Below, in pieces: positions 42,578 to 57,751 of a DNA stretch of 64,000 nt. The DNA comes from Beijerinckiaceae bacterium. GTDB lineage: Bacteria; Pseudomonadota; Alphaproteobacteria; Rhizobiales; Beijerinckiaceae. A model generated the notes under the pieces. The model ran no database searches. It saw only the letters and a list, made by a program, of their open reading frames with translations, and was not told the origin of the DNA. Location: assembly GCA_030684835.1 (NCBI GenBank), contig JAUXWZ010000036.1, forward strand, positions 1 to 64,000, read 5' to 3'. Position numbers and translations under genes: made by a program. How positions within the stretch are numbered: the stretch's first letter is position 1; each line of letters begins with the position of its first letter.

Positions 42578-42584
42578 TGCCGCC

Positions 42585-43385
42585 TCATCTGCGGAAGGCT
42601 GCGCCGGATGCGCCTTCGAGAAATGCGAGACGCCCGCCATAGGCGCGCTGGAGATTTTCGACCGTCATGGCGTCTTTGGCGGCGCCAGACGCGATCACTT
42701 CGCCGTTGAGAAGAAGCACATGATCGAAATAGTCGATGACCGTCGCCAGATCGTGATGCACGATCACGGCGGTCTTGCCCTGATCGCGCAAGCGGCGAAG
42801 CACGTCAACAAGCGTCTTCTCAGTTGCGGCGTCCACGCCCGCAAACGGCTCATCCAGAAAATAAAGATCTGCTTCCTGCGCAAGGGCGCGGGCCACGAAC
42901 ACACGCTGCTGCTGTCCGCCCGACAGACGGCTAATCTGGCGATCGGCGAAATCGGCCATGCCGACCTGATCCAGATAATCAAGCGCGGCGCGGCGATGCG
43001 CGGCGGTCACCGGACGCAGCCAGCCCAGCATGCCATAACGGCCCATTGTCACGACATCGGTCACGGAGACGGGAAATTCCCAATCGACGCTGCCGCGTTG
43101 CGGCACATAGCCAATGCGTTTGCGCATTTCGCGCAGCGGACGCCCCCAAAAGCGCGCCTCTCCTGCGCTTGAGCGCTGCAAGCCGAGCGACGCCTTGATG
43201 AGCGTCGACTTGCCGGCGCCGTTTGGTCCTACAATGGCGACAAGCGAGGAGTGCGGCGCCTCGAAATCAACGCCGCGCACAACGGGCCCGTTGCCATAAT
43301 CGACGCTCAGCGCCCGCGTGGAGAAAGGCGCTGACGCTGTCTGCGCGCCGACATGATCTTTGCGTTCGGCGACGCGCCACAGCAT
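42585..43385 (-). CDS. sitB: Mn/Zn ABC transporter ATP-binding protein, SitB-like
   Basis: A 266-residue ABC ATPase: Walker A GPNGAGKSTLIKA (about residue 53), Q-loop GYVPQRGSVDWEFPVSV, signature LSGGQQQRVFVARAL, Walker B LYFLDEPFAGVD, and H-loop IVHHDLATV. The VPQRGSVDWEFP segment is typical of manganese/zinc ABC-3 ATPases. It lies 3 bases downstream of sitA. Confidence 0.93.
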   Translation of the reverse strand: MLWRVAERKDHVGAQTASAPFSTRALSVDYGNGPVVRGVDFEAPHSSLVAIVGPNGAGKSTLIKASLGLQRSSAGEARFWGRPLREMRKRIGYVPQRGSVDWEFPVSVTDVVTMGRYGMLGWLRPVTAAHRRAALDYLDQVGMADFADRQISRLSGGQQQRVFVARALAQEADLYFLDEPFAGVDAATEKTLVDVLRRLRDQGKTAVIVHHDLATVIDYFDHVLLLNGEVIASGAAKDAMTVENLQRAYGGRLAFLEGASGAAFRR

Positions 43386-43388
43386 GGT

Positions 43389-44360
43389 TCAATCCTTTCT
43401 GGCAAGTCGCCCATTGAAGCCTTTTGACGGCGCATCGACTCCGAGGGCGCGCGCGATTGTCGTTACGTTATGGTCGATCATGCCCACATACGTGCCTTCG
43501 TAAGAGCCAGGCTTGCCCATGGCGTCGGAATACAATTCGCCGCCAATCGTCACATCGCGACCCTTCGCCTTCGCGCCCGCAATCAATGCGCGCACGGAGC
43601 GTTCGGAAATCGTCGACTCGACAAACACAGCGGGAATTTTGCGATCGACCAGCACGCCGACCAGATTTTCCATCTGTCGCAAGCCCGCTTCAGACTCCGT
43701 GGAAACGCCCTGAATTCCCAGCACGTCAAAGCCGTAACGGCGGCCGAAATAGTTGAACGCGTCATGTGCGGTCACAAGCACGCGCCGATCGGGCGGCACT
43801 GACGTCAGCACGCGCTCTGCATAGGCGTCGAGCGCCTCGATATCGCTGTGCAGCTTTGCGGCGTTGGCGCGATACAGGCTTGCGCCAGAAGGATCGCGCT
43901 GGGTGAGCTTGTCGCGCACGACCTCGACCGCCTTGCTCCAGGCGCGAGGGTCCATCCAGACGTGGGGATCAAAATGCCCGTCGGCGCCATCGAGCGGCAA
44001 CAGAGCGCTTTCGTCCATCAGTTCTGTTACGGCGAAAACAGGCTTGCCAGAGGTCGCTATCCGAACCAGGGCGTCGCTGAGCTTTCCCTCAAGCAAAAGG
44101 CCATTGTAGAAAACGATGTCGGCGCCCAGCATCGACGCGATGTCCGAGCGGGTCGCCTTGTAGAGATGCGGATCGACGCCCTCGCTCATGAGTTGGGTGA
44201 CGCGAACGCGCTCCGCGCCCACGGTGCGCGCCAGATCGGCGATCATTCCGGTGGTCGTCACGACGTTTAGCGGCTGGGGGCTCTGCGCCGCCGCGCCAAA
44301 GCTCAAGCCAAGACCGAGTATCGCAGCCGCGAGTCCGGCGACCATGCGTTTCGTCAGCAT
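43389..44360 (-). CDS. sitA: Mn/Zn ABC transporter substrate-binding protein, SitA/TroA-like
   Basis: A 323-residue cluster A-I metal-binding protein with signal peptide (VAGLAAAILGLGLSFGAAAQ). Metal ligands appear as His in EGVDPHLYKA, His in FDPHVWMD, His in TAHDAFNYF and Asp in LYSDAMG, the set seen in TroA. The His-rich loop of ZnuA is absent, which together with the MntR-type operators upstream favours manganese. The ATG at 44360 follows GGGAG; a GTG at 44366 is the frame edge. First gene of the sitABCD operon. Confidence 0.9.
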   Translation of the reverse strand: MLTKRMVAGLAAAILGLGLSFGAAAQSPQPLNVVTTTGMIADLARTVGAERVRVTQLMSEGVDPHLYKATRSDIASMLGADIVFYNGLLLEGKLSDALVRIATSGKPVFAVTELMDESALLPLDGADGHFDPHVWMDPRAWSKAVEVVRDKLTQRDPSGASLYRANAAKLHSDIEALDAYAERVLTSVPPDRRVLVTAHDAFNYFGRRYGFDVLGIQGVSTESEAGLRQMENLVGVLVDRKIPAVFVESTISERSVRALIAGAKAKGRDVTIGGELYSDAMGKPGSYEGTYVGMIDHNVTTIARALGVDAPSKGFNGRLARKD

Positions 44361-44411
44361 CGGCACTCCCTTCTAGCAATCAACCCGGAGCCGCAAAAGC
44401 TCCCACTCTCT

Positions 44412-44439
44412 AATATAGCTCCTGCTATAATAATGACAA
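44412..44439 (-). promoter_or_regulatory. sitA promoter with embedded MntR-type operator
   Basis: On the minus strand TTGTCA (44439-44434), a 16-base spacer and TATATT (44417-44412) form a sigma70-like promoter. Within it, 44414-44429 is the inverted repeat TATAGCTCCTGCTATA, which contains ATAGC-N4-GCTAT, the core of the E. coli MntR box. A bound repressor would cover the spacer and the -10 element. Confidence 0.7.
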
Positions 44440-44518
44440 GGCGCTCATAGGACAAGCTCAGGATTAAAAACGAGCCTGTTTGAAACATTGGTGTCAAATT
44501 GCAGTTGGTCGGCACATG

Positions 44519-44536
44519 TTATAGACGCGTCTATAA
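44519..44536 (+). promoter_or_regulatory. MntR-type operator in front of mntR
   Basis: A perfect 18-bp palindrome, TTATAGACGCGTCTATAA, 41 bases before the mntR start. It shares half-sites and spacing (TATAG-N6-CTATA) with the operator in the sitA promoter, which suggests that one regulator binds both and that mntR is autoregulated. Confidence 0.72.
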
Positions 44537-44577
44537 AGCCTCACGGATGGATTCGTGGGACACAACAGGCAGGGCGC

Positions 44578-45045
44578 ATGACGAACAAGGCGAAGGCCAA
44601 GTCGGCGGAGGATGCGGCTCCTCCCCTCATCGCGGCGGAAGACCATGTCGAAAGCTTTCGGCAGGCCCGCGAGGCGCGTCGCACAGAACTGACGGAAGAT
44701 TATGTCGAACTCATCGCCGATCTGCTGGACGATTCAGGCGAGGCGCGGCAGGTGGACATCGCCGCGCGGCTGGGCGTCGCTCAGCCCACGGTCGCGAAAA
44801 TGCTGAAGCGGCTCGCCGATTCCGGCTTCATCGTTCAAAAGCCGTATCGCGGCGTGTTCCTGACCCAGACAGGCCGCGAACTCGCCGAGGAAAGCCGCGC
44901 CCGTCACCAGATCGTGGAAGGATTTTTGCGCGCGCTGGGCGTCAGCCCCGACACAGCGCGGCTTGACGCGGAGGGCATTGAACATCGCGTCAGCGCAGAG
45001 ACGCTGCGCGCGTTCGAGCGCTTCACACGCGCAAAGCGCGCTTAG
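44578..45045 (+). CDS. mntR: Manganese-responsive regulator MntR (DtxR family)
   Basis: A 155-residue DtxR-type repressor. The winged helix is [28 protein letters not shown], about residues 58-85, followed by a dimerisation/metal domain with [28 protein letters not shown] that carries the Mn ligands. There is no SH3 domain, as in the short MntR type. The start ATG at 44578 follows CAGGCAGGGC. It is divergent from sitABCD and likely represses it when manganese is plentiful. Confidence 0.92.
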
Positions 45046-45084: not shown

Positions 45085-46134
45085 TTATTGAGCGGAGCCG
45101 CCCTCAAACCCCGCCAGCGCCTCACGCGCGCGGCGCGCGACGTCAGGCGGTGTGGAGACGATCTCGCGAACAATCTCCTGCAAGCGGGCGCCGGGCACGG
45201 GTGAAATCTCGAGGTTGGCGGCGTGCGCCTCTTTCAAAAGCGCAGCGTCTTTCATCGTCGCCATGAACGAGCTTCGAAGCAGCTCGAGACGATCCGCAGG
45301 AACGCCAGGGGTTGTCAGAAATGGCCGGCCCAGCGCGATATCGGCAGAGAAGAGCTGGAGCAGGGAACGGTCTTCCGCCGTCTTGCCAAATTCCATCATC
45401 AAAGGGAGATCGGGATATTCGGGGTCGCGGTCGAGTCCGACCTGCGCAAGGAGCCTGATCTTGCCGTCTCGCAGCCAGTCGCCGTTCTCCATCTTGAGGC
45501 TGTTGAAGTTGTTTCCTGCACGGCCCTGAACCTCGCCGCGCTCAAGCGCGAGGTTAACCTCCGCCGTGCTCTTGTATCCGGCGACGATCTTGAATTTCGT
45601 CCCCACGATGGCGTTCATGATGGCTGGATAAATCATCGTATAGGAGCCGGCGCCGGTTGCGCCCATCGGCGTCTCGTAGCGCGCCGCATCCGCCATCGTT
45701 TGCACCGGCGAAGTGCTCCACACGTAGAATGTCGAGTTGTTCGCCGCCGACGCGCCCAGCCAGCCAAATTGCGCGGCGTCGAATTGAATTCCCTTGCTGG
45801 TTTGCAGAACCTGCGACAGCACAAAAGAGGGAACGAGCGCCGATAAAACTGTGCCGTCCTTGGGCGCCTGGTTGGCCAGGAAGTTGGCGGCCCGCAAGTG
45901 GCCCGCACCGGGCATGTTTTTCACCACCATGGTCGCCGCGCCGGGAATATGCCTCGCCCAATGGCGCGCAATCAGCCGCGCATTCGCATCCTGTCCGCCG
46001 CCCACGCCGCTCGAAACAATCATGTCGAGGGTCTTGCCTTTGAAAAAGGCGGGCGGCGCCTCCTGTGCCTGCGCCAAGCCGCTGACGCAGATCATCACGC
46101 CTCCAACAGCCCACAAACCTGCGCGCTCTAACAT
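45085..46134 (-). CDS. TctC/Bug-type periplasmic receptor 1
   Basis: A 349-residue tripartite tricarboxylate transporter substrate-binding protein with a signal peptide ending near GLAQAQEA. Family marks are GKTLDMIVSSGVGGGQDANARLIARH, VVKNMPGAGHLRAANFL and GATGAGSYTM (ligand-loop region). The ATG at 46134 follows GGGGAGG; the frame is open to 46449 but that part is antisense to the neighbouring gene. It is divergent from the VOC gene at 46255 and resembles receptor 2 (47909) more than receptors 3 and 4. No TctA or TctB membrane gene is in the window. Ligand unknown; family members bind carboxylates. Confidence 0.9.
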   Translation of the reverse strand: MLERAGLWAVGGVMICVSGLAQAQEAPPAFFKGKTLDMIVSSGVGGGQDANARLIARHWARHIPGAATMVVKNMPGAGHLRAANFLANQAPKDGTVLSALVPSFVLSQVLQTSKGIQFDAAQFGWLGASAANNSTFYVWSTSPVQTMADAARYETPMGATGAGSYTMIYPAIMNAIVGTKFKIVAGYKSTAEVNLALERGEVQGRAGNNFNSLKMENGDWLRDGKIRLLAQVGLDRDPEYPDLPLMMEFGKTAEDRSLLQLFSADIALGRPFLTTPGVPADRLELLRSSFMATMKDAALLKEAHAANLEISPVPGARLQEIVREIVSTPPDVARRAREALAGFEGGSAQ

Positions 46135-46254
46135 GGCATCCTCCCCAGCATTATTTTCACGAACCATCGCAGAGCCGCCACATGCGCGCAACTCCCCTTG
46201 ATCGGACTGGAAAGACCGATACACTCGCTCCAAATAATTTGGAGGAACGTCAGG

Positions 46255-47070
46255 GTGCGCGCGCAGATCAATCACATGGCTATGGTCAACCCGAACTGGC
46301 CAATGATGGGCCGGTTCTACGAAGCCATGTTCGGCTTCAAGACATCCGGCAAGGTCAGCCGTCCGGCAAACGGCATCTCTGTCGGCGACGGGTACGTCGG
46401 GCTCAACATCAATCCCCAGCGCGATGGCTACATCGGCGGGCTTGACCATTTTGGCATGGTTGTCGACGACATCGAGGAAGCGCGCGCGCGCATGCAGCGC
46501 AAATTTCCCAAGGCCAACATCGTGAAGCGCCCGTCAACGCGGCCGTTCGCGCAATACTCGGGGCACGATGCAGACGGCAACGTCTTCGACCTCGCCGAAC
46601 CCAAGAGCAAGATGAACGAAATTTACGCCGAGCAGCAGGAAAAGGGCGGCTGGGCGCAGGATCGCTATCTCAACAAATTCGCCATTCGCACACCCAACGC
46701 GGAAGCGAGCGCCGAGTTTTTTCACGAAGTCTTCGACCTTCAGCTCGTCAACAAGACGGGCGACCAGGATGGCTTCTATCTGTCGGACGGACGCGTGACG
46801 CTGGCGCTGCTGCCGTGGTCGATCCCGATCTTTGAAGGTATGGCGATCAAGCGGCCCGGGCCAGACCACATCGGCATCAAGGTTGAAAGCATTGAGGCTT
46901 TTACCGAGACAATGCGCACGGTTGCGGGATCAAACCCCTATCTTGCGCCAATGCCGCTGGGCGGCAGCAAGGAATCCGACGCGCGGCGCGATTTTCTGCA
47001 GCGCTCATGCGGCGGCAAGATGCAGATCGCCGATCCCGGCGCCGTATGGATCGACATCACGGACGAATAA
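46255..47070 (+). CDS. VOC/extradiol-dioxygenase-like protein 1
   Basis: A 271-residue two-domain vicinal oxygen chelate protein, with four beta-alpha-beta-beta-beta modules by length. The GTG start at 46255 follows GGAGGA and gives MRAQINHMAMV, aligned with its three paralogs here. The N-terminal half keeps a possible metal set: His7, His in GLDHFGMVV and Asp in GNVFDLAE. In the C-terminal half the module-3 His is replaced by Lys (YLNKFAIRTP), so the usual dioxygenase site in that half is damaged. It is followed after 35 bases by VOC 2. Reaction unknown; catechol-type ring cleavage or another VOC reaction is possible. Confidence 0.85.
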   Translation: MRAQINHMAMVNPNWPMMGRFYEAMFGFKTSGKVSRPANGISVGDGYVGLNINPQRDGYIGGLDHFGMVVDDIEEARARMQRKFPKANIVKRPSTRPFAQYSGHDADGNVFDLAEPKSKMNEIYAEQQEKGGWAQDRYLNKFAIRTPNAEASAEFFHEVFDLQLVNKTGDQDGFYLSDGRVTLALLPWSIPIFEGMAIKRPGPDHIGIKVESIEAFTETMRTVAGSNPYLAPMPLGGSKESDARRDFLQRSCGGKMQIADPGAVWIDITDE

Positions 47071-47105
47071 GCGCGACGGCGCCAAACCTAAATTCAGGAG
47101 GAAAC

Positions 47106-47912
47106 ATGTTCGCCAAGATCAATCATCTTGCGATCTCGACGGATTACTACGCCGTCAACGCAAAGTTCTATCAGGCGCTGTTTGGCATGAACACGTCCAA
47201 CACGCCCCGGCCCGCACGCGCTGTGCCGGTCGGCGACGGACAAATCGGGCTGAACAACATCCCGCGGCGTGACGGACGCCGCAGCGGGCTCGATCACTTC
47301 GGCCTTGAAGTAGAGAGCATCGACCAGGCGCTTGAACGGATGCGCAAGTTCGACTCATCGCTGACCTGGGTGAAGCGCCCGTCTGTCCGCCCCAACGCGG
47401 CCTACAGCGCGCACGATCCAGACATGATCATCTTCGATCTGGCCGAACGCAATTCGGGCAAGGCGCTGGATGTTTTTGCCGAGAACAAGGGCGGCGACCT
47501 GCCCAAGCGCTACATCAACCACATCGTCCTGCGTGTCAGAAACCCCGAGCGCAGCGCCGAATTTTATTCGAAGGTTTTTGAACTCGATTTGCTGAACGAC
47601 CGCAGCGGCGACAGCTATCACCTGTCGGACGGACGCGTTCGCATGGTGCTGATGCAATGGACCATGGACAATTTCATCGGACACGATCCGATGCCGCCCG
47701 CGCTTGATCATTTTGGCTTCAAGGTTGAGAGTGTTGAGGCGATCAAAAACGAGATGATCGAACTCATTGGCTATAATCCGCAGATGGTGACCAAGCCGCT
47801 CGGCATCGGCGCGGAAGGTGAGGCGCGCCTGTCGCTTTTCAAGCAGTGCCCCATCGGCGAATTTCATCTTACGGATCTGGAGGGCGTCTACATTGACGTC
47901 ACAGAACATTGA
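47106..47912 (+). CDS. VOC/extradiol-dioxygenase-like protein 2
   Basis: A 268-residue VOC protein. It starts MFAKINHLAISTDYY after CAGGAGGAAAC. Both halves keep candidate ligands: His in INHLAI, His in GLDHFGLEV and Asp in IIFDLAE in the N-terminal half; His in YINHIVLRV, His in LDHFGFKVE and Asp in VYIDVTE in the C-terminal half. The final acidic ligand is Asp where type I extradiol dioxygenases use Glu. Its stop overlaps the TTG start of receptor 2 (TTGA), so receptor and enzyme are cotranslated. Confidence 0.87.
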   Translation: MFAKINHLAISTDYYAVNAKFYQALFGMNTSNTPRPARAVPVGDGQIGLNNIPRRDGRRSGLDHFGLEVESIDQALERMRKFDSSLTWVKRPSVRPNAAYSAHDPDMIIFDLAERNSGKALDVFAENKGGDLPKRYINHIVLRVRNPERSAEFYSKVFELDLLNDRSGDSYHLSDGRVRMVLMQWTMDNFIGHDPMPPALDHFGFKVESVEAIKNEMIELIGYNPQMVTKPLGIGAEGEARLSLFKQCPIGEFHLTDLEGVYIDVTEH

Positions 47913-48937
47913 GGACGCCCGCAAGCTTCTGCATCGCCGCCATAATGGGCCTATCGAGCTTGGCGGCTGCGCACGCGCAGAGCGGCGCCGTCGCCGAATT
48001 TTACGCCGGCAAGCCGATGACGCTGATCGTCAGCACGGGCGCTGGCGGAGGGCTGGACGCCAACGCCCGTCTCGTGGCGCGGCATATGGGCAAGCACATA
48101 CCGGGCAAGCCGTCGATCGTCGTGCGCAACATGCCGGGCGCAGGGCACATTCAGGCGACGAATTTCATGCATACGCAGGCGCCGAAGGATGGCTCGCACA
48201 TCGCGGCGATCCTGCCGTCGTTTGTGCTCTACCAACTGATCGACGGACGCGGCGCGCAATATGATACGCGCAATTTCAACTGGCTGGGCTCCAGCGACGT
48301 GGACAACATGAATGTCTACGTCTGGCACGCTGCGTCAGTGAAATCTATCGAGGACGCCAAGCGCACTGAAATCCTGATGGGCGGCACCGGCGCCGGTTCG
48401 TATACTGTCCTGTTTCCGACGCTGATGAACAACCTGATCGGCACCAAATTCAAGATCGTTTCAGGATATAAAAGCACGAATGAAATTCATCTCGCTATGG
48501 AGCGTGGTGAAGTGCAGGGCCGCGCTGGAAATTTCTTTTCAAGCCTGAAATCACAGAATGCCGATTGGTTGCGTGATGGGAAGATAAATCTAATCGCGCA
48601 GGTAGGGGAAAAGCGCGATCCGGAATTTCCTAACGTGCCGCTTTTACAGGAATTGACGACGGATGCCGAAGCCAAGCAAATATTTCGTTTGTTTTCGGCG
48701 GAAATAGCGATGGGCAAAGCCTATCTGACAACGCCCGACACTCCCAAAGATCGGCTCGATGCGCTGCGGCGCGCATTTGACGCTACAATGCAGGACGCGA
48801 GCTTCCTGACGGAGGCGAAGTCATCCGCCATTGAAGTGCGTCCGCTCAATGCGGACGCTGTGTCGCGCATTGCGAACGAAATCCTCGCAACCCCCAAGGC
48901 GCTGGTTGAGCGCGCGGCGCAGGTGCGCGGCAAATAG
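47909..48937 (+). CDS. TctC/Bug-type periplasmic receptor 2
   Basis: A 342-residue receptor. The TTG at 47909 overlaps the VOC 2 stop and is the only start that gives a full signal peptide (SFCIAAIMGLSSLAAAHAQ). Family marks: KPMTLIVSTGAGGGLDANARLV, VVRNMPGAGHIQATNFM, GGTGAGSYTVLF and GYKSTNEIHLAMERGEVQGRAG with breaks. It is closest to receptor 1 by eye. The stretch around 48421-48720 is visibly richer in A/T codons than the rest of the gene. Followed after 17 bases by the PanE-like gene. Confidence 0.88.
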   Translation: MRTPASFCIAAIMGLSSLAAAHAQSGAVAEFYAGKPMTLIVSTGAGGGLDANARLVARHMGKHIPGKPSIVVRNMPGAGHIQATNFMHTQAPKDGSHIAAILPSFVLYQLIDGRGAQYDTRNFNWLGSSDVDNMNVYVWHAASVKSIEDAKRTEILMGGTGAGSYTVLFPTLMNNLIGTKFKIVSGYKSTNEIHLAMERGEVQGRAGNFFSSLKSQNADWLRDGKINLIAQVGEKRDPEFPNVPLLQELTTDAEAKQIFRLFSAEIAMGKAYLTTPDTPKDRLDALRRAFDATMQDASFLTEAKSSAIEVRPLNADAVSRIANEILATPKALVERAAQVRGK

Positions 48938-48954
48938 CTGAGAGACAGTCCTGA

Positions 48955-49935
48955 ATGAAGATCTGCATCATCGGCGCAGGCGCTATCGGCGGGTTGCTCG
49001 CCGCGCGTCTCGCCAAGTACGGCGAAGACGTAACGATCGTGGCGCGCGGTCATCAATTGGCCGCCATTCGCAACAATGGCCTGCGACTTGTTGAGGAGAG
49101 CGGGGAAACGTTCGCCGTCGCGCCGCGCGCAGTGGAGAGACTGAGCGATGTGGAAGCTCAGGATCTCGTGATCCTTGGCATGAAGGCGCATCAGGTTTCC
49201 GCGGTCGCGCCCGCGGTGCCGGGAATGCTTACGCCGCAGGGACTTGTCCTCACCGCGCAGAACGGTATTCCGTGGTGGTACTTCTGCAAGACCGGGGGCG
49301 CGCACGAAGGTCGAGCCCTCGACAGCGTCGATCCGGGTGGCGATATCGCACGCCATTTGCCAGTAGATCGCGTCATCGGATCCGTGGTTTATCCCGCCGC
49401 CGAAATTTCAGAGCCCGGAGTGATCCGCCTGATTGAAGGTAATCGATTTTCGCTCGCGGAAATCGATAATACAAAATCCGATCGCGTTCAGGCTGTGTCC
49501 AGCGCATTCACGGCGGCAGGCTTCAAGGCCCCGGTCGTTACAGACATCCGCGCGGAAATCTGGACCAAGCTCTGGGGCAATCTGAGTTTTAATCCGATCA
49601 GCGCGCTGACCGGCGCGACGCTCGCCGGCATCTGCCGCAGCCCGCTCACGCGCGAACTGGCCGCTGACATGATGCGTGAGGCGCAATCGGTTGGCGAAGC
49701 CCTCGGCGTTCGCTTCCGCATACCGCTCGAAAAGCGTCTGGCGGGCGCAGAAGCGGTGGGTGAACACAAGACATCGATGCTGCAAGACATCGAGGCGCGC
49801 AGGCCCACGGAAGCTGCCGCCCTCGTTGGTTCGATTATTGAACTTGGGCAGATCGTCGGCGTGCAAACGCCGAAGATCGCAGCGGTTTATGCGCTCGTGC
49901 GCGGGCTTGAAGATTCAAACGCCGCGCGCGCTTGA
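48955..49935 (+). CDS. Ketopantoate reductase-like (PanE/ApbA family) protein
   Basis: A 326-residue NADP-dependent 2-oxo-acid reductase fold: Rossmann motif CIIGAGAIGGLLAARLAKYG at the N-terminus, LGMKAHQVSA, NGIPWWYF, and the catalytic Lys region in IWTKLWGNLSFNPISALTG. Housekeeping PanE makes pantoate, but this copy carries a GGAHEGRALDSVDPGG insertion and sits 17 bases after a TctC receptor, so it more likely reduces a 2-oxo acid of the local catabolic pathway. It is convergent with the hydrolase gene. Confidence 0.85.
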   Translation: MKICIIGAGAIGGLLAARLAKYGEDVTIVARGHQLAAIRNNGLRLVEESGETFAVAPRAVERLSDVEAQDLVILGMKAHQVSAVAPAVPGMLTPQGLVLTAQNGIPWWYFCKTGGAHEGRALDSVDPGGDIARHLPVDRVIGSVVYPAAEISEPGVIRLIEGNRFSLAEIDNTKSDRVQAVSSAFTAAGFKAPVVTDIRAEIWTKLWGNLSFNPISALTGATLAGICRSPLTRELAADMMREAQSVGEALGVRFRIPLEKRLAGAEAVGEHKTSMLQDIEARRPTEAAALVGSIIELGQIVGVQTPKIAAVYALVRGLEDSNAARA

Positions 49936-49938
49936 CCT

Positions 49939-50787
49939 TCACGCTTTCAGAAACGGTATGGCGAGGCGCGCCACGTCCTTTTCAGCATCCCACGGCACCA
50001 GATGCTTGCAGTCGGGAACGATGTGCAGATCAAGCTGCGGCGCCAGCGCCTTGAGATTTGTGGCGCGTTCGAACGCGTTGGCGCGATCGTTGCGGCCGTA
50101 AATAAGCAACAGCGGCAAGCGGATCTCAAGCAGACGCTTCCACATCGGCGCGTCATCGCTTTTGGCCTTTGTCTTGTTGGACGATTGCTGGCTGCGCGCG
50201 ACGAAGGCCTCAAACGCCTTGCCCAGACTGCGGCTGTGGCGCAGCGCTAATTCATCGGGCGTGATGAGTTCATGATGGAAGAGATTGGCTTCCAACAGCT
50301 TCCGGGTGTCATCGATAGATGGCTCTTCGCTCGCCATGCGGCGTTCCAGACGCGCCTGCACAACAGCCTCGCGTCCTTCGCCGCTTGCCTCCAATGCGGG
50401 CAGCAAACTGCCCGTGCCAAGAATGACGACATGGGACCAGGCATCCGGCGTCTCAAGCGCCAGTTGCACGGCCATGTTGCCAGCCTGCGAATGGGCGACG
50501 AGCGCCGGCCGCTCAAGGCCCAGCGCCTTGCAGAATGCAGGCAGGTTCTTGCGCCGAAAGCCAACTGAATGATCCTGCGGAATGTCGGACAAGCCAAAGC
50601 CCGGCTGATCATAGGCAATGGCGCGAAAACCATTATCTGCAAACGCCGGCAGATTGCGAATGAACACATCCGCCGACGAGCCGAGCGAAGCGCCATGCAG
50701 AAACACGACGGGTGGCCCTTCGCCCTGCTCGATGTAGCGAATTGTCAAATCATCGACGGTGACGAACCTGTCCTGGGGAGCCGGCAT
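49939..50787 (-). CDS. Alpha/beta hydrolase, meta-cleavage-hydrolase-like
   Basis: A 282-residue alpha/beta hydrolase. Oxyanion motif VFLHGASLGSS, nucleophile elbow VAHSQAGNMAVQ (Ser), Asp in IYGRNDRANAF and His in PDCKHLVPWD, in the order of C-C bond hydrolases such as MhpC/BphD/HsaD. ATG 50787 (MPAPQDRFVTVDDLTIRY) is preferred; a TTG at 50814 overlaps the receptor 3 stop. It is the third gene of the minus-strand unit VOC 3, receptor 3, hydrolase; a ring-cleavage protein next to a meta-cleavage-type hydrolase supports an aromatic pathway. Esterase or haloalkane activities cannot be excluded. Confidence 0.84.
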   Translation of the reverse strand: MPAPQDRFVTVDDLTIRYIEQGEGPPVVFLHGASLGSSADVFIRNLPAFADNGFRAIAYDQPGFGLSDIPQDHSVGFRRKNLPAFCKALGLERPALVAHSQAGNMAVQLALETPDAWSHVVILGTGSLLPALEASGEGREAVVQARLERRMASEEPSIDDTRKLLEANLFHHELITPDELALRHSRSLGKAFEAFVARSQQSSNKTKAKSDDAPMWKRLLEIRLPLLLIYGRNDRANAFERATNLKALAPQLDLHIVPDCKHLVPWDAEKDVARLAIPFLKA

Positions 50788-50810
50788 GTGCTTGCGTCTT
50801 TCCTGTGCAA

Positions 50811-51833
50811 TCAATTGTTGGGCGTGCCGCTCATCGCGTCCTTGGCCGCAGCGACGATCTCAGGTGGAAGCGAGAAGGCGCTGCGAACAATGTCAGCTAC
50901 CTTTTCGCCCGAGACTTCGTCGAGTTCAATTTTCTGTTTTTCAGCCTCGGCAATAAAGTTCTTGTCGTTCATAGCGGCATGGAACGCCTTGCGGATGATT
51001 TCCAGACGGTCGGCAGGCACGCCGGGCGGCATGAGAATGGGCCGATCCATTTCCTGAGGCGCCAGGACGAGCTGGAGAATTTGCTTCTTTCGCTCATCGG
51101 GAATGAGCTCAACGACTGACGGCACATCAGGCAAGAGCGGCGAGCGTTCCAGTCCGATCGCGACCGGCACGAAAACTTTCTTTTGTGCGAACCACTCGGG
51201 TCGTGTTGAACGGATCGAGGAAATAAGGCCGCCGCACCGCCCCGTCACTTCGCCGCGCTCCATAGCGAGATACACATCATTGCCGCCCTTGTAGCCGGAA
51301 ACAATCTTGATCTTTGTGCCATAAAGCTTGTTGAGCAGCGCCGGCAGCGTCTCCATCTGCGAGCCTGCGCCGGTTCCACCGACGATATACTCCTTATCGA
51401 ACAGGTCTTTCCACTCCTGTACGCCCGACGTGTGCCAGGCAACGCAAATGGCGGTTGCGCGGCTGATGCTGCCGACCCAGTTCATCTGCCGGGGATCGAA
51501 ATTGGCGCCCTTGGTCCCATACAGCGGCGCGAACGGCACGCTGGAATGCACCATGCCAATAGTAGTTCCATCTTTCGGCGCGACGTTCGCAAGGAACATC
51601 ATCGCGCGGATGCCGCCGGCGCCAGGCATGTTCTGGATCACGATATTGGGATTACCGGGTATCGCCTTTTCAAAGAAAGGCGCAAAGGCGCGCGCGTAGC
51701 TTGAATAGCCGCCGCCCTCACCCGCGCTCAGTATCCAGTTGATCTGTTTGCCTTTGTAGAAATCCTGCTGTGCCGAAGCGGACGCAGCCGGCAGCGTCAG
51801 CGCGACCGCCAACAAGCTCGCGATGCGAAGCAT
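50811..51833 (-). CDS. TctC/Bug-type periplasmic receptor 3
   Basis: A 340-residue receptor with signal peptide (LLAVALTLPAASASAQ), WILSAGEGGGYSSYARAFAP, IQNMPGAGGIRAMMF, CVAWHTSGVQEW and GGTGAGSQMETLP. It is close to receptor 4 (52853), with which it shares the NMPGAGGIRAMM and AWHTSGV stretches. It follows GGGAGGAAACATC and lies 33 bases downstream of VOC 3 in the same operon. Confidence 0.9.
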   Translation of the reverse strand: MLRIASLLAVALTLPAASASAQQDFYKGKQINWILSAGEGGGYSSYARAFAPFFEKAIPGNPNIVIQNMPGAGGIRAMMFLANVAPKDGTTIGMVHSSVPFAPLYGTKGANFDPRQMNWVGSISRATAICVAWHTSGVQEWKDLFDKEYIVGGTGAGSQMETLPALLNKLYGTKIKIVSGYKGGNDVYLAMERGEVTGRCGGLISSIRSTRPEWFAQKKVFVPVAIGLERSPLLPDVPSVVELIPDERKKQILQLVLAPQEMDRPILMPPGVPADRLEIIRKAFHAAMNDKNFIAEAEKQKIELDEVSGEKVADIVRSAFSLPPEIVAAAKDAMSGTPNN

Positions 51834-51866
51834 GATGTTTCCTCCCTCGTTGCGCCTGGCTTTTGT

Positions 51867-52679
51867 TCAGCCTTCGAACGCGTCAATCAGATTGCCGTCG
51901 CAGTCAGCAAAATGCAGCTGCCCGAATGGGCAAGAGCGCTTGAAAAGCGCCTCCAGCGCCTTGCCTTCCACGCCAGTCGCAACCGGTTCGGGAGCGATGC
52001 GTGGATTGTCGTCGCCGATGCGCTGAATGTCTTCTTGCAGCGCGGCAAGGCTTTCCACCTTAAAGCCGATGTGATCCATGCCCTGCGTGATGATGCCCGT
52101 GCCGTCATAATCCATAATGTCCCACGGCATGATGACCAGCGTGATGTGGCCATCGGTGAGATAGTAATTCTTGTCGTCGGCGGCCTGGTTGGTCGGCGCA
52201 AGCTCAAAAACGTCGCGATAGAATTCAGCTGTCTCCTGCGGCCGCATCGTGCGGAAGGCGACATGATGGATGTGGCGCGGGTTGGCGTTGCCGTCGTTCT
52301 CGACATACACGGAGGTGCGGTTGCTCATGTCCTTTTGCGAAATATCGAACATGTTGCCGTCGGGGTCATGGGTGGAAACGCCCGCGAAGGGCCGCGTGGA
52401 CGGACGCTTCAGCCAATTCACCGTCGGGTAGCGCTTGCGCATGCGCTCGTACACCGCCTCGGTGTCCTCGACCTGAATACCGAAATGGTCGAGCCCCGCA
52501 GAGCGCCCCGCGCGGCGCGGATTGATATTCAAGCCGACGTAGCCATCACCCACAGTGACCGCACGCGCTGGCCGCGTCTTCGGCGACGTGCGCATGCCGA
52601 AAACCGACTCGTAGAATTTAGAAAGCTGCGCGTAATTTTCGCTGACAATAGCGACGTGATTGATCTTCGAAAAAGCCAC
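51867..52679 (-). CDS. VOC/extradiol-dioxygenase-like protein 3
   Basis: A 270-residue VOC protein starting MAFSKINHVAIVSENYAQLS. Ligand candidates: His in INHVAI, His in GLDHFGIQVE and Asp in GNMFDISQ; in the second half His in IHHVAFRTM, His in GMDHIGFKVE and Asp in NLIDAFEG. It leads a minus-strand unit with receptor 3 and the hydrolase and is divergent from receptor 4. It is the paralog closest to VOC 4. Confidence 0.87.
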   Translation of the reverse strand: MAFSKINHVAIVSENYAQLSKFYESVFGMRTSPKTRPARAVTVGDGYVGLNINPRRAGRSAGLDHFGIQVEDTEAVYERMRKRYPTVNWLKRPSTRPFAGVSTHDPDGNMFDISQKDMSNRTSVYVENDGNANPRHIHHVAFRTMRPQETAEFYRDVFELAPTNQAADDKNYYLTDGHITLVIMPWDIMDYDGTGIITQGMDHIGFKVESLAALQEDIQRIGDDNPRIAPEPVATGVEGKALEALFKRSCPFGQLHFADCDGNLIDAFEG

Positions 52680-52852
52680 AATATCCTCCCGTTAGGCTTT
52701 CCGTCTTTCGCGGCGCCTCCGAATTTTGCAGACTATGCGACGGTCATCGGTCCTTGGCAAGACGGCGGTTATTGACTGGCGCCGCGCGGGGTGTAGCATC
52801 CGTCCGGAAAAACAGGCGTGACCGGAAACAGGTCGACGCAGTGGAGGAAATG

Positions 52853-53875
52853 ATGCGTCTGTTCGCGACGGCTTTGGCCGCGATGAGCTTTGCCATCTCG
52901 TGTGAAACGATGAAAGCCGACCCGGTGGCGGATTTCTACAAGGATCGCCAAGTTTCGCTGATCCTGAGCGCGGGTGAAGGAGGCGGCTATTCAACCTACG
53001 CGCGCGTCTTCGCGCCGTACCTGTCCAGCCACATGCCCGGCAAACCGAACATCGTCGTCCAAAACATGCCGGGCGCCGGCGGCATCCGCGCGATGATGTA
53101 TTTTCACTCTGCGGCGCCGAAGGATGGTTCGACCATCGGTCTCGTCCATTCGGGCGTTCCGCTGGCGCCGCTCTTCAAACTCAACGGCGCGAATTTCGAC
53201 AGCCTCAAGATGAATTGGCTTGGCGCACTGACCCGCGCGGACGCCATTTGCGTCGCCTGGCATACGTCCGGCGTCGCGAACTGGGACGATCTGTTCACAA
53301 AGGAATTCGTGGTCGGGGGAACCGGGGCCGGGTCGCAAATGGAGACCTATCCGGCCCTGCTCAATGCGTTGTTTGGCACCAAGATCAAGATCATTTCCGG
53401 CTACAAGGGTGGCAACGAGGTCTATCTTGCTATGGAGCGCGGTGAGGTGCAGGGGCGCTGTGGCGGGGGCTTTGCTTCGCTGGAGTCGACGCGGCCGCAA
53501 TGGTTGAAGCAAAATCTCATCAAGGTGCCCGTGCTTTTTGCGCTCGAGCGCAGCAGCGACCGCCCGAGTGAAATCCCCGTCATCGAACGCACGAAGGACG
53601 AGCGGACAATACAAATTTTGCAATTGGCATTGATGCCGCAGTCCATGGATCGGCCATTTCTTGCGCCCGCAGGCGTGCCTGAAGATCGCGCAAAGGCTCT
53701 GCGCGCGGCTTTTTCAGCGGCGGCAAACGACAAGCAATTCCGCGAACAAGCGGCCAAGCAGCGACTCGAAATTGAGCCTGTGTCGGGCGAAGAAGTCGAG
53801 CGGATGCTTAGACACGCCTTTCAGCTTCCGCCAGATGTGGTCAAAGCCGCAGCTGTCGCCATGCGAATTGAATAG
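52853..53875 (+). CDS. TctC/Bug-type periplasmic receptor 4
   Basis: A 340-residue receptor. Of the tandem ATGATG at 52850/52853 the second has the better spacing from GGAGG. The signal peptide is short (LFATALAAMSFAISCETM). Family marks: SLILSAGEGGGYSTYARVFAP, VQNMPGAGGIRAMMYF, AWHTSGVANW and GGTGAGSQMETYP. It precedes VOC 4 by 36 bases. The interval 52680-52852 between it and the divergent VOC 3 gene must hold both promoters. Confidence 0.89.
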   Translation: MRLFATALAAMSFAISCETMKADPVADFYKDRQVSLILSAGEGGGYSTYARVFAPYLSSHMPGKPNIVVQNMPGAGGIRAMMYFHSAAPKDGSTIGLVHSGVPLAPLFKLNGANFDSLKMNWLGALTRADAICVAWHTSGVANWDDLFTKEFVVGGTGAGSQMETYPALLNALFGTKIKIISGYKGGNEVYLAMERGEVQGRCGGGFASLESTRPQWLKQNLIKVPVLFALERSSDRPSEIPVIERTKDERTIQILQLALMPQSMDRPFLAPAGVPEDRAKALRAAFSAAANDKQFREQAAKQRLEIEPVSGEEVERMLRHAFQLPPDVVKAAAVAMRIE

Positions 53876-53911
53876 AACCTGGAATAGCACCAATCCGGAG
53901 ACAGACATCAC

Positions 53912-54724
53912 ATGTCGAGCAAACTCAATCACGTTGCAATCGTCAGCGAAAAATACGCGCTCATCACGAAATTTTATGAAGCGCTTTTCGGCATGAAAGG
54001 CTCTTCACGCGTCACGCCGCACTCCGCGCAAACGGTGGGCGATGGCTATGTCGGCCTCAACATCAATCCGCGCAAACCGGGGCGGCCTGGAGGCCTCGAT
54101 CATTTTGGCGTGGAGGTCGACGACGTAGAAAGCGTGCTCGACACGATGAAGACGAAATACCCGGCGGCGCACTGGATAAAGCGGCCGAGCAATCGGCCTT
54201 TCGCCGGCATCACCGCCAACGATCCTGACGGCAACGTTTTCGACCTGTCGCAGAAGAAGATGGAAAACCGCCGCCACGTCTATGAAGAGATCAGCGGCGA
54301 ACAAAATCAGCGCTACATCAGCCATGTTGCTCTGCGCACAATGCGCCCGGACGAAATGGCGCGCTTCTACATTGATATTTTTGGTTTTGCGGAGCAGAAC
54401 GCCGCCGCAGGCGACCCAAACCATTATCTCACCGACGGGCGCGTGACGCTGTCGCTCATTCCCTACGACATCTGCAATTTTGTCGGCCAAAGCATCCTTG
54501 CCCCCGGCATGGACCATGTGGGCTTTACAGTTGAGGACATGACCGCTTTCAAGGCCGATCTCGATGACCTCGTCGGCGGCAATCCAGTCATGAACGCGCC
54601 GACCGTGGGCTTTGGCAAGGAAGGCGCGCAACGGCTGGAAATGCTCCGGCGTCAGGCGCCCTATGCCGAATGCTTCATCTGCGACCCCGATTACACAATG
54701 GTCGCGGTCAAGAGCGCCAATTGA
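53912..54724 (+). CDS. VOC/extradiol-dioxygenase-like protein 4
   Basis: A 270-residue VOC protein starting MSSKLNHVAIVSEKYALIT. The N-terminal half keeps His in LNHVAI, His in GLDHFGVEVD and Asp in GNVFDLSQ. The C-terminal half keeps His in ISHVALRTM and His in GMDHVGFTVE, but the expected acidic ligand is missing in the C-terminal DPDYTMVAVKSAN. It is followed after 16 bases by the TauD/TfdA gene. Confidence 0.86.
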   Translation: MSSKLNHVAIVSEKYALITKFYEALFGMKGSSRVTPHSAQTVGDGYVGLNINPRKPGRPGGLDHFGVEVDDVESVLDTMKTKYPAAHWIKRPSNRPFAGITANDPDGNVFDLSQKKMENRRHVYEEISGEQNQRYISHVALRTMRPDEMARFYIDIFGFAEQNAAAGDPNHYLTDGRVTLSLIPYDICNFVGQSILAPGMDHVGFTVEDMTAFKADLDDLVGGNPVMNAPTVGFGKEGAQRLEMLRRQAPYAECFICDPDYTMVAVKSAN

Positions 54725-54740
54725 TTTTCCGGAGAACCGC

Positions 54741-55610
54741 GTGAGCATCGAAGTTGAACAATTGCATCCACTTTATGCCGCGCGCATTCACGGCGTCGAC
54801 ATCCGCAAGACGGTGAGCGACTCGACAATCGCTGAAGTTAAGGATGCGATGGCGAAATATGTGGTTTGCGCAATAGGCCACGACGCGCCGCCCACTAATG
54901 AGCAACATATCGGCTTTAGCCGCAATCTTGGGCCGATGGAGCGCAGCACACGCAAGATCGCCGGGACAGAGGCGCGCGTGCCTTATCCCGAGATTGTGGA
55001 CCAGAGTAATCTGGACGAGGTTGGCGAAATCTACGCCGACGACGACCGCCGTCTCGCTTACAAACGCGCGAACCGGCTTTGGCACACGGACATGAGCTTT
55101 TACGACGTGCGCGCCACGTATTCGCTGCTGGCGGCGCACGCCATTCCGCCAGCGGGCGCGGATACCGAGTTCGTCGACATGCGCGCGGTGTACGATTTCC
55201 TACCCGAACACCGTAAGGCCGAAATCGAAGGACTCATTGTCGAACATTCTTACTGGCACAGCCGCGTGCTTGGCGGAGGGCCCGAGCCGACGGAGGAAGA
55301 GCGCGCCACGCGGCCACCTGCCCGCCATCCCATGGCGCATGTTCACACACCCTCGCAGCGCAGGACGCTTTACCTGGCTTCGCATGCCTGCGGAATCGTC
55401 GGCTGGCCAAGTGAGCAAGCGCGAGCCCTCATCGAGGAGCTGCTGACGTTCGCAACGCAGCCGCGCTTCGTTTACGCGCACAAATGGCGCCTGGGCGACG
55501 TCCTCATCTGGGACAATCTCGCCACGATGCATCGCGCGACAGAGTTCGACGATCGGACTTTCAGACGGGACATGCGGCGCACGACGTGTCGCGAGCGCAC
55601 CTTGGCTTGA
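54741..55610 (+). CDS. TauD/TfdA family 2-oxoglutarate-dependent dioxygenase
   Basis: A 289-residue Fe(II)/2-oxoglutarate oxygenase. The GTG start at 54741 follows CCGGAG and gives MSIEVEQLHPLYAARIHGVDI; the frame is open to 54612 inside VOC 4. The iron ligands are His-X-Asp in LWHTDMSFYD (about residue 113-115) and the distal His in LATMHRATEFD, with the 2-oxoglutarate Arg in DMRRTTCRE. It resembles 2,4-D dioxygenase more than taurine dioxygenase by eye. It probably hydroxylates an aryloxy or amino carboxylate; substrate unknown. Confidence 0.9.
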   Translation: MSIEVEQLHPLYAARIHGVDIRKTVSDSTIAEVKDAMAKYVVCAIGHDAPPTNEQHIGFSRNLGPMERSTRKIAGTEARVPYPEIVDQSNLDEVGEIYADDDRRLAYKRANRLWHTDMSFYDVRATYSLLAAHAIPPAGADTEFVDMRAVYDFLPEHRKAEIEGLIVEHSYWHSRVLGGGPEPTEEERATRPPARHPMAHVHTPSQRRTLYLASHACGIVGWPSEQARALIEELLTFATQPRFVYAHKWRLGDVLIWDNLATMHRATEFDDRTFRRDMRRTTCRERTLA

Positions 55611-55648: not shown

Positions 55649-56284
55649 ATGGCCAGACACAGCTTAATTTGCGGAGCGGCTTTCGCCTTCATGTCGATGG
55701 CCGCAGGCGCGCAAGCGCAGACCATCGTCGATGAATGGGCTGGCATAAAACTTCCCCCGCCACCTGCGCTCAAGGCGGCAAAGGTGGATCCCAAGACGAC
55801 CGCGCTCCTATTGTTCGACTTCACGCACCAGACGTGTTCGCAAGAGCGGCGCCCACGCTGCGCCGCATCCGTCCCAAAGCTCAAGAAGCTTCTGGACGAT
55901 GCGCGTGCAAACAACATGTTCGTGGTCTGGTCTGTCGCCACCGCCGACTCCAAGCCAGCCGATATTCTGCCCGAGATCGCGCCGCGCGCTGGCGAGCCCG
56001 TTCTGCCGTCGCTCGGACCTGACAAGTTCATCAAAAGCGATTTCGAGAAAATGCTCCGCGACAAAGGCGTGACGGCAATCATCATCACCGGCACCGCAGC
56101 GCACACAACCGTCCTGCACACAGGCGGCCAGGCGGCGCTGCGCGGCTTCAAGGTCATTGCGCCTGTGGACGCCATGTCGTCAAACGACCAGTTTACCGAA
56201 GCCTATACGGCCTGGCATCTCGCTAACGCTGCGCGCATCGTAAACGCGACGACGCTGACGCGAGTCGACATGATCACTTATTGA
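55649..56284 (+). CDS. Exported isochorismatase-fold protein lacking the catalytic Cys
   Basis: A 211-residue cysteine-hydrolase (isochorismatase) fold protein with an N-terminal signal peptide (ICGAAFAFMSMAAGAQAQ). The Asp of the D-K-C triad is in LLLFDFTHQ (residue 57) and a Lys is in GPDKFIKSDF, but where the nucleophilic Cys normally stands the sequence reads GTAAHTTVLHTGG, with Thr in place of Cys. It is therefore probably not a classical amidohydrolase and may bind a ligand in the periplasm. It follows the TauD-type gene by 38 bases. Confidence 0.84.
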   Translation: MARHSLICGAAFAFMSMAAGAQAQTIVDEWAGIKLPPPPALKAAKVDPKTTALLLFDFTHQTCSQERRPRCAASVPKLKKLLDDARANNMFVVWSVATADSKPADILPEIAPRAGEPVLPSLGPDKFIKSDFEKMLRDKGVTAIIITGTAAHTTVLHTGGQAALRGFKVIAPVDAMSSNDQFTEAYTAWHLANAARIVNATTLTRVDMITY

Positions 56285-56527
56285 ACCGCAGCACTTACTG
56301 AATTGCCTTGCGCGCCGCCTCTATAAAGGCGTGGAGGCGCCGAGCGTCTCGTCTCGCTGCAAGATCAGCAGGCGGGCAGCCACTACGCCTTTGTGGAGCA
56401 GTTCAATCGCGTCTACGATCTTGCGTGGAGTTACGAGCTTCTGAACCTCCATCAGCCTGGCGCTTCCTTGACGAGCGTGGCGTTACAAACCTTTAGGCGC
56501 CGCGCAAGCGCGACCGGGCTCAAGCAG
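56285..56527. pseudogene. Possible degraded gene between two isochorismatase genes
   Basis: This 243-base gap has protein-like frames on both strands but no intact gene. A plus-strand frame reads through ERLVSLQDQQAGSHYAFVEQ and on to NRVYDLAWSYELLNLHQPGA, and a minus-strand frame of about 48 codons includes LVTPRKIVDAIELLHKG. Neither has a good start or a family that I recognise. It may be a remnant left by rearrangement, or chance. Confidence 0.3.
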
Positions 56528-57229
56528 CTAGGCCGGCGACAACGACAACAGGTGCTCCTCCACTTCAGTCAGATGCATGACGTCGGCATATTTATGCGCC
56601 ATGTCAAAGAGGTTGACCTTGTGGGTTAGCTCCGTCTGATCAAATGTGCATTCCTCCACAATGTTGATGGTGAAACCCAATGAATAACCATCGACAACAC
56701 TGGCGCGCACGCAGCCTGATGTCGCCTCGCCACAGATGATCAGCGTTTGGATGCCAAGCAATGTGAGGTGCGAGGCGAGCGGTGTGCCCTGAAAAGCGCT
56801 GGCCCGCTGTTTGCGAATGATGACGTCGGTCTCCTCCACGGCGAAGGCTGGGTAAATGTCGTAATCGTCCGGCAGGCGCGGCGGCGAGCGGCGCTTGGTC
56901 GACACAGCGCCCTGCGGACGGGCGTGAGAGCTCATGTCGCCCGTACAATAGAAGATCGGCAGTCCCGCCCGGCGCGCAGCTGCGAGCAAACGTTGAGTTG
57001 GTTCAATGGCGGCATGCGCGTACATCCCGCACGAGCTTGGATAGCGATCAATGAGGTCGATGGGCGGGTGCGCGCCACCCCTGTAAACCAGATTGTAAAG
57101 ATCAATCGCCACGACCGCCGCGCGCGGCCCGACCTTCGTGGCGCGGGTGTAGGGTTCGTAAATGCGCATGTCGTTTTCCGGTACGACATCTTTCCAGCAA
57201 TGGTCCTGAAATCGGTCTTTGTCAGCCAT
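56528..57229 (-). CDS. Isochorismatase family cysteine hydrolase
   Basis: A 233-residue cytoplasmic cysteine hydrolase with an intact triad: Asp in AVVAIDLYNLVYRGG, Lys in VIIRKQRASAF and Cys in ICGEATSGCVRASVVDGY. The family includes maleamate amidohydrolase (NicF), N-carbamoylsarcosine amidase and nicotinamidase; the HPPIDLIDRYPSSCG segment near the N-terminus fits the N-carbamoylsarcosine/maleamate group better than nicotinamidase. ATG 57229 follows GGGAGGCGGAT; the frame is open to 57262. It is transcribed against its neighbours on both sides. Confidence 0.88.
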   Translation of the reverse strand: MADKDRFQDHCWKDVVPENDMRIYEPYTRATKVGPRAAVVAIDLYNLVYRGGAHPPIDLIDRYPSSCGMYAHAAIEPTQRLLAAARRAGLPIFYCTGDMSSHARPQGAVSTKRRSPPRLPDDYDIYPAFAVEETDVIIRKQRASAFQGTPLASHLTLLGIQTLIICGEATSGCVRASVVDGYSLGFTINIVEECTFDQTELTHKVNLFDMAHKYADVMHLTEVEEHLLSLSPA

Positions 57230-57282
57230 ATCCGCCTCCCTCGTCTGCGAAAGTACAAGCAAACGCCGGGCCAGAGACGAGC

Positions 57283-57498
57283 TTAGTCAGTACGCGGCAG
57301 GAGGAGGCGAATCCCGATGAAGACAAACAGCACCAGCAACAGGATAAGCGAATCTTTTTGCGCTCTGGGATCATCCTGATGAAACAGCAGATAGGCGAGC
57401 GCGATCGAGGCCGAAAATAGCATGGCGAGGCCGATAGGAGCGACCAGATTCTGAAAGAACATTGCTGTCAATGAGCCTTGTGCCGTGAGCGATTTCAC
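57283..57498 (-). CDS. Small two-helix membrane protein, function unknown
   Basis: A 71-residue frame from a GTG at 57498, or 59 residues from the ATG at 57462. It contains two hydrophobic stretches (PIGLAMLFSASIALAYLLF and LILLLVLFVFIGIRLLL) separated by a charged HQDDPRAQKDS loop and ends LPRTD. The composition is that of a small inner-membrane protein. There is no clear ribosome binding site and no recognisable family. It lies 53 bases upstream of the isochorismatase gene on the same strand. Confidence 0.5.
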   Translation of the reverse strand: MKSLTAQGSLTAMFFQNLVAPIGLAMLFSASIALAYLLFHQDDPRAQKDSLILLLVLFVFIGIRLLLPRTD

Positions 57499-57751
57499 CG
57501 ATTATTTCTTCACTAAGCTAGTGGGATGGACCCACAAGTTCAACGACCCATTTGCGACGCTAATAATGACTGTGGCGCCATGACGGGCACATGTTCCAGA
57601 TGCAGGGCTACCATCGGGTTGACGGTCGCACAGCGCTGCCGCACACTGTCGCAAACACGATCCGGGAGGCGGCGACACGGCGACCACATCATGCAGCGCA
57701 TGCAAGCGCGTTTGCTTGTCCATTCACATCGCCATTCCACGGGAGCCACAC

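Follow-up and report, generated by a model that had tools for sequence, protein, structure and literature searches.

Why should four receptors of the TctC type each be encoded beside one of four paralogous vicinal oxygen chelate (VOC) proteins? This arrangement occupies positions 45,085 to 54,724 of a 64,000-nucleotide stretch of DNA from a Beijerinckiaceae bacterium (contig JAUXWZ010000036.1), which is hereafter called the window. An initial annotation, made from the sequence alone, described it as a four-fold duplicated receptor–enzyme cassette for a series of related aromatic or heterocyclic acids. We find that the TctC–VOC adjacency is real and very unlikely to be a product of chance. Furthermore, we assign a probability of roughly 0.55 to the proposal that the VOC–receptor unit is a module for the uptake and catabolism of a family of carboxylates, which are probably aromatic acids or related ring acids. 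Pfam matches and the open reading frames confirmed that all eight genes, four for TctC receptors and four for VOC proteins, are located where they had been annotated; they are listed below with the VOC proteins named for their clades (A through D).

45085..46134, minus strand: TctC receptor 1 (PF03401, 39.8 bits, queried as 45085–46104); divergent from VOC-D; start approximate
46255..47070, plus strand: VOC-D (VOC 1), two-domain (PF00903, 49.7 bits); N-domain His-His-Asp site intact, Lys replaces the first His of the C-domain site
47106..47912, plus strand: VOC-C (VOC 2), two-domain (PF00903, 54.8 bits); clade assigned from trees
47909..48937, plus strand: TctC receptor 2 (PF03401, 40.1 bits); four-base overlap with the end of VOC-C
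50811..51833, minus strand: TctC receptor 3 (PF03401, 39.9 bits); downstream of VOC-A
51867..52679, minus strand: VOC-A (VOC 3), two-domain (PF00903, 69.1 bits); both His-His-Asp sites intact
52853..53875, plus strand: TctC receptor 4 (PF03401, 37.3 bits); upstream of VOC-B
53912..54724, plus strand: VOC-B (VOC 4), two-domain (PF00903, 55.9 bits); Asp of the C-domain site gone

The start of receptor 1 is uncertain, as its open frame extends to 46449 and position 46134 is a reading by eye. All four receptors pass the Pfam TctC cut-off of 27 bits (37.3–40.1 bits). Likewise, all four VOC proteins pass the Pfam Glyoxalase cut-off and contain paired beta-alpha-beta-beta-beta modules, as is found for members of the VOC superfamily. 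VOC 1 shares 40 to 43% identity with the other window VOCs, and VOC 3 is 45% identical to VOC 2 and 50% identical to VOC 4. The window carries an A/B unit and a C/D unit, both of which have two receptors and are partly inverted. From translations read by eye, the receptors look exported and the VOC proteins do not, and therefore receptor and VOC would act sequentially.

Adjacency within the source genome

Because TctC genes are very common in the source genome (4.93 Mb in 208 contigs), the observed adjacency needed a control. The genome carries nine TctA genes and at least 150 TctC genes, and thus most of its TctC receptors are orphans. Both TctC totals obtained are lower bounds (at least 141 with 150 of 228 candidates scored, and at least 150 with 150 of 275 scored). 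None of the nine TctA genes resides on the contig of the window (TctB was not searched for), although orphan receptors need not have such membrane partners encoded beside them. A TctC gene is found within ~130 bp of all seven matches to this VOC family in the genome, namely the four window genes, a two-domain VOC at C104:97265, and two single-domain VOCs (C10:2726 and C18:4404). In contrast, at least 2 of 20 other Glyoxalase-family genes of the same genome, counted by eye, lie within 300 bp of a TctC gene. The comparison of 7/7 with 2/20 yields a one-sided Fisher p value of ~4 × 10−5 (calculated by hand), wherein the four window VOC genes form one cluster and hence are not independent. Both TctC-adjacent control genes are on contig C104, and one of them is inside an aromatic catabolic cluster.

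Other members of these families in the source genome show related arrangements. The TctC gene beside the C104:97265 VOC is interrupted, such that the TctC that precedes this fifth VOC (L007:450–1489) is split over two frames. An ortholog of the same VOC, in locus L043, has a different TctC upstream. The single-domain VOCs on C18 and C10 (L008 and L009) are ~140 to 150 residues long, are related to the N-terminal domain, and are each directly beside a TctC gene. A separate cluster on C104 (L087:4160–8866) consists of a TctC gene, an MhpA-like FAD hydroxylase gene (471.6 bits, cut-off 390), a gene for an extradiol-like two-domain VOC, and another TctC gene.

Adjacency across other genomes

In named genomes, 125 matches were confirmed and ranked by how similar they are to the window VOCs; the best 80 were taken, of which 77 loci were left. 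These 77 loci are mostly from metagenome-assembled genomes of Alphaproteobacteria, with others from Betaproteobacteria, Binatia, Deltaproteobacteria, and further groups, and because the set is similarity-selected its clade frequencies are not a census. The VOC alignment contains 113 rows from 121 matches, as four matches below 200 bits and four partial ones were left out and the partial ones were counted apart. Locus L010, from a near-identical relative, was omitted from trees and pairing counts but retained for adjacency and ligand counts, and loci L003 to L006, which are copies of the window sequence, were omitted from the feature table.

In the trees, the four window VOCs fall into four separate clades: A (51867), B (53912), C (47106), and D (46255). 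Outside the source genome, a TctC gene lies within 300 bp of 53 of the 70 members of these clades (A 20/22, B 23/26, C 5/13, D 5/9), nearly always on the same strand. The corresponding values are 0/4 for clade E, 0/3 for clade F, 5/31 for the remaining members, and 2/4 for the partial ones. Relative to A, the receptor gene lies downstream on the same strand in 19 cases and upstream in 3; relative to B, it lies upstream in 23 of 23. A frequent layout is VOC-A, one or two receptors, and VOC-B on one strand. The near relative (L010) carries the gene order of the window in mirror image; its VOC-A counterpart (L010:3069–3707) is an incomplete frame of 213 residues.

The VOC family is present (E values up to 1 × 10−30) in 24 of 36 same-genus genomes and was found in none of 24 genomes from other families of the order. 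An adjacent TctC gene occurs in 24 of the 28 same-genus loci (the exceptions are L100, L111, L115, and L116), although these relatives may overlap the named genomes and some of the loci overlap one another. In one of these loci (L114), the adjacent TctC is a fragment at a contig end. Conserved adjacency in other genomes, which the initial annotation had put forward as a check, is therefore borne out. A search for signs of mobile spread yielded only one weak plasmid match (30% identity over 44% of the query).

Pairing and duplication history

VOC types A and B, C and D, and E and F tend to travel in pairs. When counts are confined to VOC matches above 200 bits that have room of 3.5 kb or more to either side, a B gene is near A in 12 of 15 cases, D is near C in 6 of 6, F is near E in 2 of 3, and E is near F in 2 of 2. 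No second VOC was found beside the 23 members outside clades A to F that have such room. The A–TctC–B order with one receptor is seen in L011, L014, L018, L019, L041, and L070, and two receptors lie between A and B in L013, L022, L024, L025, L029, and L030. The C–TctC–D order is found in L011 and L050, and L012 has two receptors between C and D. Pairs that lack an adjacent full-scoring TctC are also present, both for C near D (L080, L081, and L082) and for E near F (L065, L075, and L078).

The initial annotation had further proposed that receptor and VOC were duplicated four-fold as a unit. Receptor and VOC trees indeed agree, with a Mantel r of 0.61 over 54 pairs that was equaled in 0 of 5000 permutations. 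Shuffling within clades gave values as high in 13 of 5000 permutations (clade A alone, 0/5000; clade B alone, 39/5000). Deep in the tree, receptors from A/B units and receptors from C/D units form separate groups, with four divergent exceptions (L011_4690, L012_4704, L041_10838, and L043_4792). However, duplication as a unit is not borne out, given that the VOC clades appear to predate the receptor duplications and that several genomes have a single receptor between two VOCs. In the window, the distance between VOC-A and VOC-B is 1.74 versus 0.99 for receptors 3 and 4, and the distance between VOC-C and VOC-D is 2.38 versus 1.37 for receptors 1 and 2. This is despite the fact that receptors diverge about twice as far as VOCs in three orthologous comparisons (0.78 versus 0.41 for the window A unit and L013; 0.66 versus 0.32 for D and L018; 0.84 versus 0.46 for C and L041). 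Because receptors are closer than VOCs within units even though orthologous receptors diverge faster, we infer that the receptors duplicated later and that the VOC clades are older.

The noted resemblance between receptors 1 and 2 (51% identity) and between receptors 3 and 4 (~60%) holds as similarity, but a sister relation is disfavored. In approximately unbiased (AU) tests on a receptor tree from which eight divergent receptors were left out, the first pair was rejected as sisters (p = 1 × 10−5) and the second was weakly rejected (p = 0.03). A triad block duplication, with A matched to C, was 16.6 log-likelihood units worse but was not rejected (AU p = 0.13), and the version with A matched to D gave an AU p of 0.28. 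The trees differ on the order of the VOC splits: a 36-row VOC tree places A and B together against C and D (support 100/95), whereas in a 110-row tree A and B are, with weak support, not sisters.

Metal sites and predicted fold

Two putative metal sites can be recognized in the alignment (residue numbers are one less than in full-length VOC-A). The N-domain site (His7, His64, and Asp111) is complete in 110 of 113 rows, and the three exceptions are all from clade F. The C-domain site (His138, His202, and Asp265) is complete in A (23/23) and in most C members (12/14), but it has lost the Asp in B (28/28), the first His in D (10/10), and the second His in E (4/4). Clade F (3/3) has a complete C-domain site and a lost N-domain site, such that E and F each retain the site lost by the other. 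Among the 31 other members, 20 have both sites and 11 have a degraded C-domain site. This distribution suggests that the VOC pair is probably functionally asymmetric, mostly with a second intact site in one member and not in the other, and the pair may form a hetero-oligomer.

An AlphaFold2 model of VOC-A (mean pLDDT 92.6, pTM 0.90, from a 41-row alignment) places the site residues on the first strand of each module and on the last strand of each domain, which we take to be the usual locations of metal ligands in VOC enzymes. In a HMMER alignment, Asp111 is opposite a Glu of a lactoylglutathione lyase (6bnn).

A proposed carboxylate module and its alternatives

These results are consistent with a module in which an exported receptor would bind a carboxylic acid and pass it to a membrane transporter whose genes would lie elsewhere. 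The VOC pair would then make the first attack in the cytoplasm by using its conserved N-domain His-His-Asp site, either cleaving a C–C bond or isomerizing the substrate, and a hydrolase and a reductase encoded nearby would take the product on. We hold cleavage and isomerase-type steps to be about equally likely. Several observations weigh against this proposal. The hydrolase and reductase genes are each missing from most loci seen (18 and 13 sources, respectively, with many loci being short), and other neighbors vary and include unrelated genes such as those for lipid A synthesis. An adjacent TctC is lacking for 8 of the 13 members of clade C, for 4 of the 9 of clade D, and for all 7 of clades E and F. 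Where there is room, B lacks A in 7 of 12 cases and A lacks B in 3 of 15, and the only D with room has A and B nearby but no C. In L011 and L012, the C-domain site is degraded in both C and D, with its His and Asp lost from the C members. Finally, metal binding is proposed from conserved residues and a predicted fold, and features typical of extradiol enzymes, described below, are absent.

The initial annotation considered the VOCs to be candidate ring-cleaving dioxygenases, and the most familiar form of this idea is that they are ordinary type I extradiol enzymes of a meta-cleavage pathway, in which the hydrolase acts as in BphC/BphD systems. Such enzymes, including BphC, HsaC, HpaD, and catechol 2,3-dioxygenase, share the two-domain VOC fold. 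The best Protein Data Bank (PDB) matches by Foldseek are catechol 2,3-dioxygenase, HsaC, and related extradiol enzymes (E ~1 × 10−13), and the neighboring hydrolase is closest to HsaD/BphD models. However, TM-scores are only ~0.6. Type I extradiol dioxygenases cleave rings with Fe(II) or Mn(II) and O2, and they have a 2-His-1-Glu metal site in the C-terminal domain and second-shell catalytic residues around a GRH loop. The window family instead conserves its N-domain site, has Asp at the Glu position wherever an acid is present, and has an incomplete C-domain site in B, D, and E. Moreover, 11 family rows aligned with the extradiol-like VOC of the same genome (L087:6838–7740, which has a GPGRH loop and matches 3b59 with an E value of 2 × 10−39) lack a counterpart of this loop. 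The window VOCs are also below every NCBIfam cut-off (catechol_2_3, 32.6 bits versus 320.2). By these features, the VOCs are not canonical extradiol dioxygenases, and this explanation for the module is unlikely; ring cleavage is a candidate activity, and its canonical version is contradicted by the residues. A better candidate, which is possible but still doubtful, is that the VOCs act on keto acids or on CoA or thiol adducts as isomerases, lyases, or thiol transferases rather than as oxygenases, in which case the module would still be carboxylate-catabolic. Most of the 41 aligned members match ArsI/CadI, YaeR, glyoxalase I, and methylmalonyl-CoA epimerase models weakly, a thiamine pyrophosphate (TPP) enzyme and an amidase are encoded beside C/D pairs, and ergothioneine or selenoneine synthesis genes are near a VOC gene in three loci. 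Those three (L057, L080, and L086) are nevertheless the only ones among 77 loci with thiol genes. Searches of NCBIfam and of PDB sequences for a named family gave only weak, mostly half-length matches: the best E value for the 41-row set against curated models is 1 × 10−12, and the window VOCs fall short of the glyoxalase I, methylmalonyl-CoA epimerase, Fos, and ArsI/CadI cut-offs (at best 45.1 bits versus 116).

Two further explanations concern the receptors. They could serve sensing or signaling rather than uptake, with the VOC genes as co-regulated targets, and a sensing role for orphan tripartite tricarboxylate transporter (TTT) binding proteins is raised in the excerpted text of Rosa et al. 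2018 (PMC5994714). The lack of TctA on the contig of the window fits this suggestion, but no kinase is among the 25 most frequent families of the neighbors scanned and other uptake proteins lie beside related VOCs, and we therefore judge it improbable. Chance adjacency is very improbable. It would draw on the abundance of TctC genes, many of which are clustered, but it is opposed by the control counts and by the agreement of the trees, and the observation taken to tell against it, conserved order and strand across genomes, was made. A more tentative idea, which extends the carboxylate module, is that the A+B, C+D, and E+F pairs are two-component VOC enzymes of a hitherto unrecognized kind. Each would be a hetero-oligomer, as a rule of one partner that keeps and one that loses the second site, acting on carboxylates delivered by the linked receptor. 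The uptake protein would be exchanged between lineages, as TctC, as a binding protein of the ABC or NMT1 type, or as a protein resembling aromatic acid symporters.

Relation to known systems

Arylmalonate decarboxylase belongs to an enzyme family other than VOC. Its genes have TTT neighbors, which are orphan in Betaproteobacteria, and thus resemble the window in that an enzyme acting on a carboxylated substrate is encoded near TTT proteins (PMC5812351, in excerpt). A second likeness is to the tph operon of Comamonas sp. E6, wherein tphC is inside the operon and the transporter genes tpiBA are elsewhere, giving an orphan TctC-type receptor within catabolic genes with its membrane parts encoded separately (PMC8556258, in excerpt). 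In contrast to the window, where VOC paralogues flank one or two receptors, the gene list of the tph operon in that excerpt includes a three-component dioxygenase and a single receptor but no VOC. A Pfam scan of the 14 genes of 45.1–58.7 kb found no counterparts of tphA1–A3 or tphB. The same receptor family has undergone a very large orphan expansion in related Alphaproteobacteria, and a predominance of orphan receptors is reported for Rhodoplanes and Bordetella (PMC5994714, in excerpt). A term search of that text finds no glyoxalase, VOC, or dioxygenase.

The initial annotation knew of no described system of this form. With respect to linkage between TctC and a VOC pair, no description was found among the titles and abstract openings of open PMC literature, but orphan TctC genes within or near catabolic genes are known from the two systems above, and TphC and the arylmalonate decarboxylase neighbors appear from those excerpts to be the nearest precedents. 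This VOC pair and its layout thus look undescribed, whereas the general idea has precedents. Among the many orphan TctC receptors of such bacteria, most lack an assigned ligand, and a conserved receptor–enzyme linkage would allow ligand and enzyme assays to inform each other and provides a defined receptor set to deorphanize. If paired VOCs with unequal metal sites form one enzyme, a well-studied fold would here be put to a new use.

Neighboring genes

Three further genes of the window adjoin the receptors or VOCs.

48955..49935, plus strand: ApbA/PanE-like reductase (NF005089, 433.9 bits versus a cut-off of 223); recurrent neighbor
49939..50814, minus strand: alpha/beta hydrolase (PF00561, 82.3 bits); overlaps TctC receptor 3 on the same strand
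54726..55610, plus strand: TauD-family 2-oxoglutarate dioxygenase (PF02668, 194.9 bits); directly after VOC-B; possible associate; start approximate

Neighbor genes in other loci were called by a simple greedy choice of open frames, by which some genes are missed or invented, and 99 of 142 complete neighbor genes were scanned for families. The commonest are alpha/beta hydrolase and ApbA-like reductase (seven each). The hydrolase cluster comprises genes from 18 sources including the window; in 13 of these, no more than 20 bp separates the hydrolase gene from a VOC or TctC gene, and the strand is mostly shared. The window hydrolase is below the cut-offs of its closest models (HsaD, 120.5 bits versus 400). 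The reductase cluster has 13 sources and the TauD cluster seven; the source genome accounts for two in each case, namely the window together with L005 (reductase) or L004 (TauD). Some loci without TctC have SBP_bac_6/8 or NMT1 binding proteins nearby, and L081 has a major facilitator superfamily (MFS) protein that resembles aromatic acid symporters (281 bits versus a cut-off of 418.6). Some TctC-less loci also carry UbiD, amidohydrolase, TPP enzyme, or amidase genes.

In L057 (584–11001), genes for a VOC, an NMT1 binding protein, and a hydrolase directly precede the selenoneine synthesis genes for SenA (504.7 bits, cut-off 420) and SenB (389.6 bits, cut-off 300), and EgtD is encoded upstream. 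In L080 and L086, EgtB is near VOC-C together with a gene of the EgtD cluster. Downstream of TauD in the window, positions 55649–58744 encode an asparaginase-family protein as well as two hydrolases of the isochorismatase family, and a further TctC comes next at 58753. On the other side, beside the cluster at 40701–45045, are an apparent metal ABC importer and a DtxR/MntR-like regulator, as judged from translations alone.

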